Source: Qipengyuania proteolytica
Lineage (GTDB): Bacteria > Pseudomonadota > Alphaproteobacteria > Sphingomonadales > Sphingomonadaceae
NCBI RefSeq assembly: GCF_019711565.1
Contig: NZ_JAIGNN010000002.1
Location: 248,001 to 312,000, forward strand
Reading direction: 5' to 3'
DNA length: 64,000 nt
Part shown: positions 41,854 to 61,791 of the stretch, one piece after another
Position numbering within the stretch: position 1 is the stretch's first letter
Layout of the letters: every line of letters begins with the position of its first letter
Notes under the pieces: model-generated
Databases searched by the model: none
What the model was told of the DNA's origin: nothing
The model's input: only the letters and a program-made list of their open reading frames with translations
Program-made: the position numbers and the translations under genes

Positions 41854-41868
41854 GTTCCGTGTATGTTC
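41854..41868. promoter_or_regulatory. LexA box (SOS operator) of the radical SAM gene
   Basis: The sequence GTTCCGTGTATGTTC at 41854-41868 is a perfect GTTC-N7-GTTC, the direct-repeat operator bound by alphaproteobacterial LexA. It lies in the 40-base gap between moaB and the radical SAM gene, and overlaps the first in-frame ATG (41863), so LexA would block transcription start or early elongation. It marks the downstream gene as a probable DNA-damage-inducible gene. Confidence 0.75.
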
Positions 41869-41874
41869 TCATGC

Positions 41875-42960
41875 ATGGAACGCCGACTCGAACCCTCTTT
41901 CGATGGCCGCGGAGCGCAGTCGGCGCAGGTGCCGACGCGCTTCGGCCTCGCCACGCGTGAAGCGGATGGCGACTGGCGCGACTACATGGAGCAGCTTGAC
42001 GGCCCTCCCGTAAAACTGCGCACGCATGTGACCGAGGAGCGACCGAAGACGATCCTAAGCTTCAATCAGTCGCCCGACATCTTCTTCGACCGTTCGATCA
42101 ACGCCTATCGCGGCTGCGAGCATGGCTGCGTCTATTGCTTCGCGCGGCCCACCCATGCCTATCACGACCTCTCGCCCGGGCTCGATTTCGAGACTCGGCT
42201 CTTTGCGAAGCCAAATGCGGCAGAACTGCTTCGCGCGACGCTGGCCAAGCCGAAGTACCGCCCCAAGCCGATCGCCATGGGGACCAATACCGATCCCTAT
42301 CAGCCGATCGAGCGGACTTACCGCATCACGCGGTCCGTGCTGGAAGTCTGCCTCGACGCGCGCCATCCGGTGACGATCACCACCAAGTCCGACCGGGTGG
42401 TGGACGATCTCGACCTGCTCACCGCAATGGCGGAGCGGCGGCTGGTGGCGGTGGCGATCTCGGTCACTAGCCTCGATCCCAAGCTCTCGGGCAAGCTCGA
42501 ACCGCGTGCAGCATCGCCGGCCAAGCGACTCGCTGCCTTGCAGAAACTGGTCGAGGCAGGCGTGCCGAGCCACTGCTCGGTCGCGCCGGTCATCCCCGCC
42601 ATCACCGACGAGTTCATGGAAGAGATCGTCCAGCGCGCGGCGGCGGTCGGAGTGGACAGCGTCGGCTGGATCCCGCTGCGCCTGCCGCACGAGGTCGCGC
42701 CGCTGTTTCGCGAATGGCTCTCGGTCCACTACCCCGAGCGCGGGGACAAGGTCATGTCCATCGTCCGCTCGATCCGGAGCGGCAAGGACAACGACCCCAA
42801 CTTCTTCAGCCGTCTGAGGCCCACCGGCGTCTGGGCCGACCTCTTCCGCGCCCGCTTCCGCCTCGCCTGCAAGCGCGCCGGCATCGGCAAGGCGAAGTTC
42901 GAGCTCGACTGCACGCAGTTCAGGCCGCCCGCGGTGGGCGGACAATTGCGGCTCCTCTAG
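41875..42960 (+). CDS. PA0069/Rv2578c family radical SAM protein, SplB-like
   Basis: Radical SAM enzyme of 361 residues. The cluster motif CxxxCxxC is in GCEHGCVYCFARP. Blocks PIAMGTNTDPYQPIE, ITTKSDRVV and GVPSHCSVAPVIPA are typical of this family, which is related to spore photoproduct lyase (SplB), the DNA repair enzyme. The substrate is unknown. The start is taken at ATG 41875 (MERRLEP), because the alternative ATG 41863 lies inside the LexA box; neither has a good ribosome site. Its TAG stop is in a CTAG, immediately followed by the DUF559 cassette. Confidence 0.88.
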   Translation: MERRLEPSFDGRGAQSAQVPTRFGLATREADGDWRDYMEQLDGPPVKLRTHVTEERPKTILSFNQSPDIFFDRSINAYRGCEHGCVYCFARPTHAYHDLSPGLDFETRLFAKPNAAELLRATLAKPKYRPKPIAMGTNTDPYQPIERTYRITRSVLEVCLDARHPVTITTKSDRVVDDLDLLTAMAERRLVAVAISVTSLDPKLSGKLEPRAASPAKRLAALQKLVEAGVPSHCSVAPVIPAITDEFMEEIVQRAAAVGVDSVGWIPLRLPHEVAPLFREWLSVHYPERGDKVMSIVRSIRSGKDNDPNFFSRLRPTGVWADLFRARFRLACKRAGIGKAKFELDCTQFRPPAVGGQLRLL

Positions 42961-43007
42961 CCTCCCCGGCACGGGGAGGGGAACCGCCGAAGGCGGTGGA
43001 GGGGCAC
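42961..43007 (+). repeat. Left inverted arm of the DUF559 cassette
   Basis: 47-bp arm with two hairpins: CCTCCCCG-GCA-CGGGGAGG (8-bp stem) and ACCGCC-GAA-GGCGGT (6-bp stem), then GGAGGGGCAC. It matches the right arm as an inverted repeat; the stems of hairpin 2 differ in sequence but stay paired. It lies after the stop codon of the DUF559 gene and starts directly after the radical SAM stop. Confidence 0.92.
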
Positions 43008-43009
43008 GC

Positions 43010-43384
43010 TCAGCTGTTCCCGATTGCAGCTTTTCGCTCAGTACAAATCTGCCCGAGCCTGACCGACACCGCCTCCACATCCTCGAGAATCGCCTTGGCC
43101 GGAATACGGGTGGTCGCAATCCCTTGCGAGCGGAGAAACTCCGACCGCCACTGGTCGCGCGCGATCGTTTCGGGGTTGTCATGTACCCATCCATCCACTT
43201 CGATCGCGAGACGGAGCGAGGCGCAATAGAAGTCAAGAATATAGGGGCCGGCCGGATGCTGGCGGCGGAACTTGAGGCCATCGGGACGAATGCGAAGATG
43301 CGACCAGAGCACGCGCTCGGGCTTCGACATCTCGCTGCGCAGCTTGCGGGCACGTTTGATCGTTTCGCGCGGGCCGGTGATCAT
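43010..43384 (-). CDS. DUF559 endonuclease-domain protein (Vsr/PD-(D/E)XK-like)
   Basis: A 124-residue protein with a DUF559 domain, related to very-short-patch-repair (Vsr) nucleases. The core is KPERVLWSHLR, LKFRRQHP and PYILDFYCASLRLAIEVDG; Asp in LDFY and Glu-x-Asp in EVDG fit a PD-(D/E)XK metal site. It has no signal peptide and no Vsr-type zinc site. Start ATG 43384 has GGAGGGG about eight bases upstream, supplied by the right arm of the cassette. Whether it nicks DNA and moves the element is unknown. It is the only gene of the cassette. Confidence 0.9.
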   Translation of the reverse strand: MITGPRETIKRARKLRSEMSKPERVLWSHLRIRPDGLKFRRQHPAGPYILDFYCASLRLAIEVDGWVHDNPETIARDQWRSEFLRSQGIATTRIPAKAILEDVEAVSVRLGQICTERKAAIGNS

Positions 43385-43389
43385 GGCTT

Positions 43390-43434
43390 GTGCCCCTCCA
43401 CCACTTCGTGGTCCCCCTCCCCGTTTCGGGGAGG
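43390..43434 (-). repeat. Right inverted arm of the DUF559 cassette
   Basis: 45-bp arm, read on the minus strand: CCTCCCCG-AAA-CGGGGAGG, then ACCAC-GAA-GTGGT, then GGAGGGGCAC, ending just before the DUF559 start. It pairs with the left arm; outer hairpin stems are identical, loops differ, and inner hairpin stems differ by compensating changes. It also brings the ribosome site for the DUF559 gene. Confidence 0.92.
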
Positions 43435-43863
43435 CTAGAACCCCTCCCCCGCTTCACCCGGCTTGAAGCAAATCAGGCGGCTATCGACCAGGGCGGCGGT
43501 ACGGTTGACCACGGCGAGCTGGTAGTCCGGGTCCTTGATCATTGCGAAGAACGCCGCGCTGTTCGGATATTGCGCCACGAAGCCGTCGTGCCAGCGCTTG
43601 TCGTCGGGCCCGGTGACCATGGTCTGGAACGCGCCGCGCCAGACGATCGAGCCGCCGACGCGCTGGAAGATCGGGCCGCTGGTCTTGCCGTATTCCTGAT
43701 AGGCGCGCCGCCCGCTCCAGCCCTTTCCCGCATGCTCGTGGCCTTCGGGATAGGCGGCCTCCTCGCGGTAGAGCAGTAGGTTGAGCATGTGGATCGGCTC
43801 GTCGCGCGGCAGGGCCTTGAAGGCTTCGAAATTCGCGCGGCTCGGATCGATGAAACTGGTCAT
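43435..43863 (-). CDS. DUF1330 domain-containing protein
   Basis: A 142-residue protein of the DUF1330/dimeric alpha-beta barrel type. Conserved parts are PIHMLNLLLYREEAAYP, YGKTSGPIFQRVGG and AFFAMIKDPDYQLAVVNRTAAL. Function unknown; the family resembles small stress-response or monooxygenase-like barrels. The start is ATG 43863. Its TAG stop is in the CTAG at 43435-43438, which abuts the right end of the DUF559 cassette. It is the last gene of a minus-strand row that begins at dnaE. Confidence 0.85.
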   Translation of the reverse strand: MTSFIDPSRANFEAFKALPRDEPIHMLNLLLYREEAAYPEGHEHAGKGWSGRRAYQEYGKTSGPIFQRVGGSIVWRGAFQTMVTGPDDKRWHDGFVAQYPNSAAFFAMIKDPDYQLAVVNRTAALVDSRLICFKPGEAGEGF

Positions 43864-55659: not shown

Positions 55660-56369
55660 GCGACACGCCGCTGGAAGGCCGGCTCGCGCTCGTCACCGGG
55701 GCGAGCAAGGGGATCGGTGCCGCGACCGCCAAGGCGCTGGCTGCAGCAGGCGCGCATGTGGTGCTGACCGCGCGCGACGTGCGTGGTCTCGAGACGGTCG
55801 AGGATGCGATCCACGATGCCGGCGGGCAGTCGACAATTGCGCCCGTCGACCTTGCCGAAGCCGACGGTATCGCCCGGCTCGCTTCGGCGGTGGCCGGCCG
55901 CTGGGACAAGCTCGATGCGCTAGTTATTTCAGCGGCTTATCTGCCGACCCTCACGCCGGTCACGCAGATCGACGGTAAACAGCTCAGCCAGGCGATCACG
56001 GTCAATGTGCTGGCGACGCAGGCGTTGCTCGCCAATTTCGACCCGCTGCTGAAGCGCGCCGATGCCGGCCGTGTGCTCGGCCTCACCAGCAGCGTGGGCG
56101 CCAGCCCGCGTGCCTACTGGGCCGCCTATGGCGCGACCAAGGCTGCCTTCGACAACCTCCTCGCCTGCTACGCCGCCGAGATCGAGAAGGTGTCAAAGGT
56201 CCGCGTGGCCCTGATCGATCCCGGTGCGACTCGGACCGACATGCGCGCCAAGGCCTATCCCGGCGAGGACCCGAAGACGGTAAAATCGCCCGATGTTGTC
56301 GCAAATAGGCTCGTCAAGCTGCTTGTTAACGATTTCGAGGGCTTCCACCGAGAGCGTGTGGAAGGTTGA
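55656..56369 (+). CDS. SDR family oxidoreductase, coupled to purF
   Basis: Short-chain dehydrogenase of 237 residues. The cofactor motif is TGASKGIG; the active site is LTSSVGASPRAYWAAYGATKAAF, in short Ser and YGATK. It ends in a helix without C-terminal extension. The start ATG 55656 overlaps the purF stop (ATGA), so expression is coupled, but no purine role is known; SDR genes next to purF are seen in several alphaproteobacteria. The substrate is unknown. Confidence 0.88.
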   Translation: MSDTPLEGRLALVTGASKGIGAATAKALAAAGAHVVLTARDVRGLETVEDAIHDAGGQSTIAPVDLAEADGIARLASAVAGRWDKLDALVISAAYLPTLTPVTQIDGKQLSQAITVNVLATQALLANFDPLLKRADAGRVLGLTSSVGASPRAYWAAYGATKAAFDNLLACYAAEIEKVSKVRVALIDPGATRTDMRAKAYPGEDPKTVKSPDVVANRLVKLLVNDFEGFHRERVEG

Positions 56370-56383
56370 ATTAACCTGCCGAT

Positions 56384-56398
56384 TTAACCTTTTGGTAA
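56384..56398 (+). promoter_or_regulatory. Possible CtrA-type site upstream of the PilZ gene
   Basis: TTAA (56384-56387), seven bases, then GTAA (56395-56398) followed by CC: a one-mismatch match to TTAA-N7-TTAA, the box of the alphaproteobacterial cell-cycle regulator CtrA. A further TTAA lies at 56371. It sits 55 bases before the PilZ start, where a promoter is expected. Such AT-rich tracts stand out in this GC-rich DNA. Confidence 0.35.
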
Positions 56399-56452
56399 CC
56401 CCGAAGGTCGAGATTCCGTCAAATACCCACGCGACTGCGCGAGGTGTGAATT

Positions 56453-60867: not shown

Positions 60868-61791
60868 CTAGCGCGCGGGAAGTTCCTCGCATTTCACATC
60901 GGGCAGCGCGACGGTGAAGCGGTCGCGGGCGCGCGGGTCATAGAAGCGCGCATCGCGGAGGAGGACGGAGCCATCGGGCGCCCGCTCGGCAAAGGGCGCG
61001 CGGGACCAGAAGAGGAAGGCTGCCAAATCGCGATTGCCTCGCGGAATTTTCCTTATCGGATCGAGCGCACATTCACCGACCAAGTCTCGCTCGATCCACC
61101 ATTGCCCGTCTGCTTTTTGCGTCAGAGTTTCTCTTTGCCACGAAGTCAGCGGTAACGGACTTTCGATCGTTCTGTAGCCCGAAATTTGCGGGCCGGTGAC
61201 CTCAGCGATTTTGGTGATCGCTCCATTCATCCCGATATAGGCCAGCGCCACCGCAATCGCCACGTGTGCAGGCCTGCGCCACTCCCCGCCCCGCTTCTCG
61301 CGCCGCAGCGAGAACCATGTGGCAAAGCCCATCAACGCCCAGAGCCATACGTCGATAATGAACAGCGTGTCGCCATAGAACCAGCGGCTCGAAAACGGCT
61401 CCAGCAGGCGGATGCCGTAGACGTTGAGCCAGTCGAGCGCCGGGTGCGTGAGGCAGCCGATGAAGCTCAGCAGGTAGAGCCATTCGAAGTTGACCGGCAA
61501 CCGCCCCTCGGGCCGCCCAAAGCGTTTCTGGCCGGGCTTCGCCTGCCAGCGGTCGAAGCCGTAGAGCAGCCCGGCCAGCACCAGCGGCAACAGCACCAGC
61601 GCCGGTGGGCCGTGTGTGATCCCGCGGCGGAAGCCGAGATGCTCCACCCCGTCGAGCCAGAAGAAGCACGCCGCATCGACATCGGGCAGGTTCGCCCCGA
61701 TGATCAGCGCGGGCATGGCGAGCCCAGTTTTCTTCTTGAGCCCCGCCTGCCCGATGAGCGCGCCGACGAGCGAATGGGTGAGATTGTCCAG
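60868..61791 (-). CDS. Membrane-bound metal-dependent hydrolase (DUF457 type), CTG start
   Basis: A polytopic inner-membrane protein of 307 residues, related to YdjM/YfhO-type membrane-bound zinc hydrolases. The N-terminus reads (M)DNLTHSLVGALIGQAG, the family start with the metal-binding His; GANLPDVDA and HLGFRRGITHGP follow, and four or more membrane segments come after. The start codon is CTG at 61791: an AGGAG lies seven bases upstream, a stop in frame is 12 codons higher, and no ATG, GTG or TTG is available between. GC drops to about 54% at 61021-61200. Its stop is TAG in a CTAG. Confidence 0.82.
   Translation of the reverse strand: MDNLTHSLVGALIGQAGLKKKTGLAMPALIIGANLPDVDAACFFWLDGVEHLGFRRGITHGPPALVLLPLVLAGLLYGFDRWQAKPGQKRFGRPEGRLPVNFEWLYLLSFIGCLTHPALDWLNVYGIRLLEPFSSRWFYGDTLFIIDVWLWALMGFATWFSLRREKRGGEWRRPAHVAIAVALAYIGMNGAITKIAEVTGPQISGYRTIESPLPLTSWQRETLTQKADGQWWIERDLVGECALDPIRKIPRGNRDLAAFLFWSRAPFAERAPDGSVLLRDARFYDPRARDRFTVALPDVKCEELPAR

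Follow-up and report, generated by a model that had tools for sequence, protein, structure and literature searches.

DUF559 nuclease genes are paired with triplex-type palindromes: a candidate partner enzyme for BoxC-like repeats

In the window, by which we mean the whole 64,000-nucleotide stretch of Qipengyuania proteolytica DNA analyzed here, a short DUF559 gene lies enclosed by two inverted palindromic arms in the gap between a radical SAM gene and a DUF1330 gene. The locus raises the question of whether gene and arms belong together and, if so, what the encoded protein does with them. A first-pass annotation, made from the letters alone, had described a 474-bp unit with a single DUF559 gene between inverted double-hairpin arms of 47 and 45 bp and a CTAG on each side, the left CTAG carrying the stop codon of the radical SAM gene and the right one that of the DUF1330 gene. 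The coordinates confirmed all of this (Table 1), and the nuclease is the sole protein of the unit.

Table 1. Features of the DUF559 cassette and its two neighbor genes, in window positions
Feature	Position	Strand	Remarks
Radical SAM gene, left neighbor	41863..42960	+	stop TAG within left CTAG
Left CTAG	42957..42960		radical SAM stop plus one base; without counterpart at the left end of the other seven same-site cassettes
Left arm	42961..43007	+	47 bp
Left arm, hairpin 1	42961-42979		
Left arm, hairpin 2	42983-42997		
Left arm, mirror block	42998-43004		GGAGGGG
Left arm, CAC			
DUF559 gene	43010..43384	-	124 aa; predicted PD-(D/E)XK/Vsr-type nuclease
Right arm	43390..43434	-	45 bp
Right arm, hairpin 1	43416-43434		
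Right arm, hairpin 2	43400-43412		
Right arm, mirror block	43393-43399		
Right arm, CAC			
Right CTAG	43435..43438		DUF1330 stop plus one base
DUF1330 gene, right neighbor	43435..43857	-	stop within right CTAG

The DUF559 protein of the window matches PF04480 with an E-value of 1.2e-24 and 86.7 bits (curated cut-off, 20.6), and is by this match a member of the DUF559/YcjD/VsrA family. The structure predicted from an alignment (pLDDT 91), which was used in place of a single-sequence model (pLDDT 56), agreed with the Vsr fold, and the protein is accordingly predicted to have a PD-(D/E)XK/Vsr-type nuclease fold. The homing endonuclease I-Bth0305I (catalytic domain 3r3p) belongs to phage introns; the gene of the window lies instead between hairpins in intergenic DNA. 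A defense-system identity and a phage origin were both rejected, PADLOC matches being weak (mREase_II 8.3e-4, DpdF 2.7e-3) and phage matches amounting to just four distant ones. Within the family, YcjD had earlier been predicted to be a PD-(D/E)XK enzyme (PMC1189080), and VsrA of Caulobacter, a DUF559-domain protein, has been connected with DNA damage in a methylase mutant and interpreted by its authors as mismatch-repair-type (PMC12907096). The window's unit differs from these in its palindromes, none being mentioned beside the gene in the available passages of the published accounts. Most of the 60 genus genomes have, roughly once each, a further and divergent DUF559-class gene (E about 1e-12 to 1e-17), for example at locus L121 (G000:C1:462182-464490; G numbers denote genomes and L numbers loci), and at L118 (G021:C2:342321-343100) one open frame of about 307 aa holds two DUF559 domains.

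Both arms of the window scored E of about 1e-14 with a covariance model that has them among its 36 training rows, and the exact arm pattern read backwards was absent from all 60 genus genomes and all 249 family genomes; on these two grounds the arms are far beyond chance. Both were also picked up by a strict triplex-layout detector, the pyrimidine block, the complementary purine block and the mirror purine block all being present. An Rfam search of positions 42900-43500 returned no known RNA family, and a search of the window's own genome returned no further arm copies. Two more strict triplex-layout motifs are located on the plus strand of the window, away from the cassette, at 56342-56409 and 61295-61367.

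Read forwards, the exact arm pattern is present in 21 of the 60 genus genomes and in 115 of the 249 of the family; copies number up to 101 in one genome and occur either alone or in inverted pairs. The annotation had taken DUF559 cassettes to be mobile units whose arms should be sought with and without the gene, and both forms were encountered: among 53 inverted arm pairs in the fetched sequence, 37 are of cassette length (442-496 bp), so that cassettes recur at other places, and 16 are arm-only (124-189 bp). Over 61 arms of equal length, 99.1% of the cells are paired, compared with 88.9 in shuffles, and cells in which both partners of a pair are changed number 79, compared with 20.4; sliding the partners of the stems leaves at most 13 such cells. 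The number of pairs with changes on both sides is five, not above shuffles (4.0; 59 of 500). Taken together, the alignment suggests that the folded strand of the arms is conserved and that the stems co-vary.

One arm pair, in G024, has no counterpart at the corresponding place in seven of ten relatives searched (G018, G041, G047, G032, G008, G009, and G007), the place being occupied by another insert in G023 and G043 and by other sequence in G027. As the second arm is degenerate and the spacers of the relatives differ too much, the junction of this pair is not definable. For a second arm pair, in G018, no clean empty site was found: both flanks are on one contig in eight of ten relatives, and these eight have 54-595 bp of other sequence as spacer. 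The insert in G023 and G043 (L217 and L218) is of about 118 bp and carries another repeat (GTCATTGCGAGGAGC..). Much the same sequence (..aaccagaaatatttcg..), perhaps within a reading frame, precedes the arms at L135, L142, and L165, which come from three genomes, two within the window's genus and one outside it.

A strict triplex-layout motif (a 7-bp stem with a purine 3′ arm, plus a mirror block in which a single mismatch was allowed) lies within 250 bp of 175 of 201 DUF559 genes, compared with 11 of 825 control windows placed at least 540 bp away from a DUF559 match. The 201 genes were taken one per locus, as its best match, from the strongest matches of the DUF559 searches and are not a random sample: they comprise genus matches below about 1e-20 plus a few others, 30 loci each from family and phylum, the best 80 of 365 from named genomes, and 8 chosen of 41 from plasmids. 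By set, the motif was found near 51/55 genes in the genus, 28/29 in the family, 60/79 in genomes of named species, 8/8 on plasmids, and 28/30 in the phylum sample; it is absent near 26 of the 201. A test for perfect stems alone was discarded as too loose (68/80 upstream windows versus 152/837 control windows) and the triplex-layout test was used instead. The mirror block faces the gene in 156 of the 160 upstream windows with a motif and faces away in 54 of the 160; downstream, the figures are 75 and 33 of 85. Hosts of DUF559 genes with palindromes include Sphingomonadales, Caulobacterales, Hyphomicrobiales, a Phycisphaeraceae MAG, Deinococcus, and a Synechocystis plasmid.

Arms of this kind might be ordinary transcription terminators or mRNA hairpins that by chance bound a small gene between convergent genes, as the G+C-rich stems next to stop codons would suggest; relatives without the cassette, moreover, often have a short hairpin in the radical SAM-DUF1330 gap. 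We nevertheless consider such an origin improbable, since arms are also found directly upstream of DUF559 start codons, the DUF559 gene is in places flanked by co-directional genes, those of the transhydrogenase subunits among them, and a terminator has no need of a mirror block. Neither would it explain that no triplex-layout motif was found at six divergent DUF559-family genes of the genus, nor that the class of the arms follows the nuclease tree.

To describe this last relationship, the palindromes were sorted into seven classes, the patterns of classes B and C being derived from arms that adjoin DUF559 genes. Mapped onto a tree of 141 DUF559 genes, which includes loci fetched via the arm pattern and excludes 28 of 169 genes without a recognized arm class, arm class requires 19 changes, compared with 55.2 in shuffles, none of 200 shuffles being as low. 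Classes B, C, D, and E each occupy one side of a branch, and the two sides agree in 34 of the 36 cases in which the arms of both were classifiable (14.8 expected). The class C palindrome occurs in 14 copies in 11 of the 60 genus genomes, every copy at most 46 bp from a DUF559 match; with no copy away from a DUF559 gene, nothing points to a spread of this class. Class B is represented by 11 copies in 6 genus genomes, 6 of them beside DUF559 and 5 elsewhere, and 4 of these 5 share their genome with a class B DUF559. Class A arms are present in 78 of the 87 family genomes with a DUF559 match at E≤1e-20 and in 37 of the 162 without one (Fisher test, which ignores phylogeny). Thus, 37 of the 115 arm-bearing family genomes lack DUF559 at this threshold, and some of these are rich in arms; G070, for one, has 97 arms and a best DUF559 match of 4.4e-13. 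DUF559 genes and triplex-type palindromes form a tight, lineage-matched pairing.

Two shared sites bear on how cassettes reach a place. Nine DUF559 genes of the pnt site, whose arms include some of class A and some of class F, do not group as a single clade (AU p 0.0046, in a post hoc test framed after an earlier tree), a result in keeping with separate arrivals there or with a single arrival followed by later moves. For the 10 DUF559 genes of a shared site adjacent to ispE, the one-clade test was borderline (p 0.0475).

With regard to the window's own site, a DUF1330 orthologue is clear in 56 of the 60 genus genomes, the window's included, and the cassette adjoins it in eight of these (G000, G018, G023, G024, G027, G032, G041, and G047, again with the window's included). 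Presence of the cassette therefore varies between relatives, as the insertion proposed in the annotation entails. The left neighbor was not found in the stretch examined in six of the 56 genomes. The radical SAM-DUF1330 spacer is highly variable over the 56 genomes, ranging from an overlap by 4 bp to 1581 bp, and in many of them it holds unrelated inserts. The annotation had further suggested that, without the unit, both genes would share one palindromic CTAG stop. Such an uninterrupted junction does exist in two of the 56 genomes (G031 and G004), but these are placed in another part of the tree and are not simply readable as the state before insertion.

The eight DUF559 proteins of this site form one clade (support 100/99 and, in a second tree, 100/97) with long branches, and a recent insertion was rejected on these grounds. 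In a site tree built from the two neighbor genes (49 genomes, 7 of the 56 sites being left out), G000 stands beside a clade of six genomes (G044, G045, G049, G051, G025, and G046), in a grouping with support below 80; six other cassette genomes belong to a different, well-supported clade of ten, and G027 is near that clade. A single 19-bp hairpin is situated directly at the stop in G044, G045, G049, and G051, and similar short hairpins are present at the site in G008, G007, and G043; G025 and G046 have other content there. The simplest reading of these trees would be one old insertion, vertical descent and then repeated losses, the 19-bp hairpins of G044, G045, G049, and G051 being possible loss scars. 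The window's own copy is old and single, and probably resident.

The same eight cassettes bear on the model put forward in the annotation, a transposon that targets a palindromic CTAG and duplicates it. CTAG does flank the window's unit on both sides, and the shared CTAG stop of G031 and G004 would agree with it. Nevertheless, both CTAGs are found in just one of the eight cassettes: in the other seven, a TGA stop and about 3 bases precede the left arm, and a CTAG to the left occurs in the window's genome only. The two CTAGs are weak evidence in any case, each consisting of a TAG stop plus one base in a window with 24 CTAGs. Flanking bases were compared for 52 arm pairs, arm-only and gene-bearing, 1 of the 53 pairs being left out as it had no flank sequence. 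Direct 4-bp matches were found in 2 of the 52 (0.5 expected, p 0.08), one of them being the window's own CTAG, so the proposed 4-bp target duplication finds no support either; inverted 4-bp matches were found in 10 of the 52 (3.0 expected, p 0.0005), an excess that persists without the DUF1330 and pnt loci (8 versus 3.5, p 0.012). We read the flanking inverted match as part of the inverted ends of the element. Direct 3-bp matches were 2 (4.0 expected) and direct 5-bp matches 0. A weak excess of direct 2-bp matches (20 versus 15.3, p 0.016) vanishes once the DUF1330 and pnt loci are removed (20 versus 18.1, p 0.17). When 100 offset-length combinations were compared, with 300 shuffles for each, the largest excess of direct matches over all pairs was at 2 bp (9 versus 3.0), which we ascribe to the number of combinations tried. 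The 52 pairs thus do not present the direct target repeat at both ends by which insertion sequences and MITEs are recognized. As the DUF559 genes of the window's site moreover form one clade, the CTAG-duplicating transposon is largely refuted and we consider it highly improbable.

A nuclease gene flanked by two inverted palindromes is reminiscent of the REP/RAYT system. The likenesses to the RAYT and REPIN features given in PMC2817692 are that palindromes are dispersed, some of them as inverted pairs (outside the window's own genome, in the case of our arms), that palindrome and enzyme lineages go together, and that there is no larger target duplication. There are also clear differences. The cassette enzyme is of the PD-(D/E)XK/Vsr type (PF04480) and not an IS200/IS605-like tyrosine (Y1) transposase; the GTAG (or CGTC) head tag is missing, the feet of the cassettes being mostly AT (AT at the end in 82 of 139 outer flanks, GTAG in 2 of 139); and the arms have a triplex layout. 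With a different enzyme and without the GTAG tag, the DUF559 unit is not a RAYT.

The layout of the arms leads to another group of repeats. BoxC/PIT/TM repeats were described in the 1990s, have been reported from more than 260 bacterial genomes and have been tied to genome rearrangement; in E. coli, the TMECO (BoxC) repeats are intrastrand triplex motifs that occur five times in inverted pairs, and their triplex formation in solution has been demonstrated in vitro (PMC4666352). They share with the arms the succession of pyrimidine block, purine block and mirror purine block (TMECO has 23 copies in MG1655), an intergenic location and the occurrence of some inverted pairs; class A arms differ in that a further hairpin separates the purine block from the mirror block. 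The DUF559 gene of E. coli K-12 is ycjD, located between fabI and sapF, and 166 bp downstream of it we found the sequence CCCCTCGCCCC-TCT-GGGGAGAGGG-TTA-GGGTGAGGGG. This repeat is TMECO copy 9 of the published 23 (1,351,239-1,351,204; PMC4666352, Table 1). As it has a mismatch, the strict detector does not pick it up, and its identity as BoxC rests on the published table. Over the first 22 rows of the same table, which is arranged by position, TMECO 9, which together with ycjD spans 1351204-1351760 of MG1655, is the sole copy between 624.7 kb and 3,046 kb, a distance of about 2.4 Mb.

A BoxC query had matches in 5375 of 5426 complete E. coli genomes, with a median of 18 places, and a query of ycjD plus BoxC had a place covering at least 80% of it in only 3364 of the 5426; BoxC-like repeats thus persist in strains without this ycjD. 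Such strains have the eef operon at that place (PMC12817139). In a search for the empty site, the fabI side alone matched in 14 of 40 among the matches listed, and no simple insertion is readable, since the strains with only the fabI side carry the eef operon there. The 2015 study of the repeats reports no mobility functions among the gene contexts of BoxC, and neither "endonuclease" nor "ycjD" occurs in its main text (PMC4666352). Within titles, abstract openings and passages of the literature searched (subscription papers and preprints being outside its scope), we found neither a link of DUF559 or YcjD to palindromes or BoxC nor a described partner enzyme for BoxC/triplex repeats.

Taking into account the analogy with RAYT and REP, we propose that DUF559 may be the partner enzyme of BoxC/triplex repeats. 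Its likeliest role would be to act on the folded arms and to have spread them; the pairing itself is observed, and movement by the nuclease is what we infer from it. The unit of the window would then be a selfish or half-domesticated element of repeat plus nuclease, working in a REP/RAYT-like manner with an unrelated enzyme, a reading to which we give an even chance. The DUF559 nuclease would recognize arms of its own class, either folded as a single strand or extruded as a hairpin, probably at the replication fork, and would nick at the foot of the hairpins. Nicking could let arms, arm pairs or the entire cassette be copied into new intergenic sites without target duplication; cassettes would then be inherited for long periods and might disappear when the two outer 19-bp hairpins recombine, with a single hairpin left behind.

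In favor of spreading by the nuclease we count the association with the motif, the cognate pairing of arm class and lineage, the location of class C, the co-occurrence over genomes, the co-variation of the stems, the dispersal of the arms, the gain in G024, the separate pnt lineages, the neighborhood of ycjD and BoxC, and the possible loss scars. Against it count that no cleavage or movement by a DUF559 protein has been seen, that the window's genome has no other arms and an old, vertically inherited site, that class C does not appear to spread, that arms occur without DUF559 at E≤1e-20 and BoxC without this ycjD, that 26 of 201 genes lack the motif, and that some motifs face away; also the 2-bp direct excess, the lack of a clean empty site for the G018 pair, and the mismatch-repair-type interpretation of VsrA.

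The main rival is a repair role at folded repeat structures. DUF559 would in that case trim or nick hairpins, triplexes or mismatches that stall replication, the arms being its targets or an autoregulatory switch, and the repeats would have spread otherwise. The predicted Vsr-type fold and the link of Caulobacter VsrA to DNA damage (PMC12907096) speak for such a role, as do the reports that BoxC/PIT repeats block polymerase in vitro, with no effect seen in vivo, and that BoxC loci are linked to rearrangement (PMC4666352). Repair alone, however, does not explain why the gene lies between two inverted arms, why arm class tracks the nuclease lineage, or why no class C palindrome was found away from DUF559 genes, and we hold it to be the less likely of the two.

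Extended beyond the window, the spreading of arms by their nuclease would make DUF559 a second, non-HUH class of repeat-mobilizing enzymes, each lineage copying triplex-capable hairpins of its own class. The BoxC/PIT/TM repeats found in E. coli, in cyanobacteria and in many further bacteria would then be the tracks of such enzymes; we advance this tentatively, at somewhat less than even chances. A candidate partner enzyme makes the origin and effect of BoxC/PIT/TM repeats directly testable, with E. coli K-12 among the hosts, and it suggests a shared role for a family whose name is still that of a domain of unknown function. If it is true that a Vsr-type nuclease alone spreads hairpin repeats, this would be a movement of DNA unlike that by DDE, tyrosine or serine recombinases.
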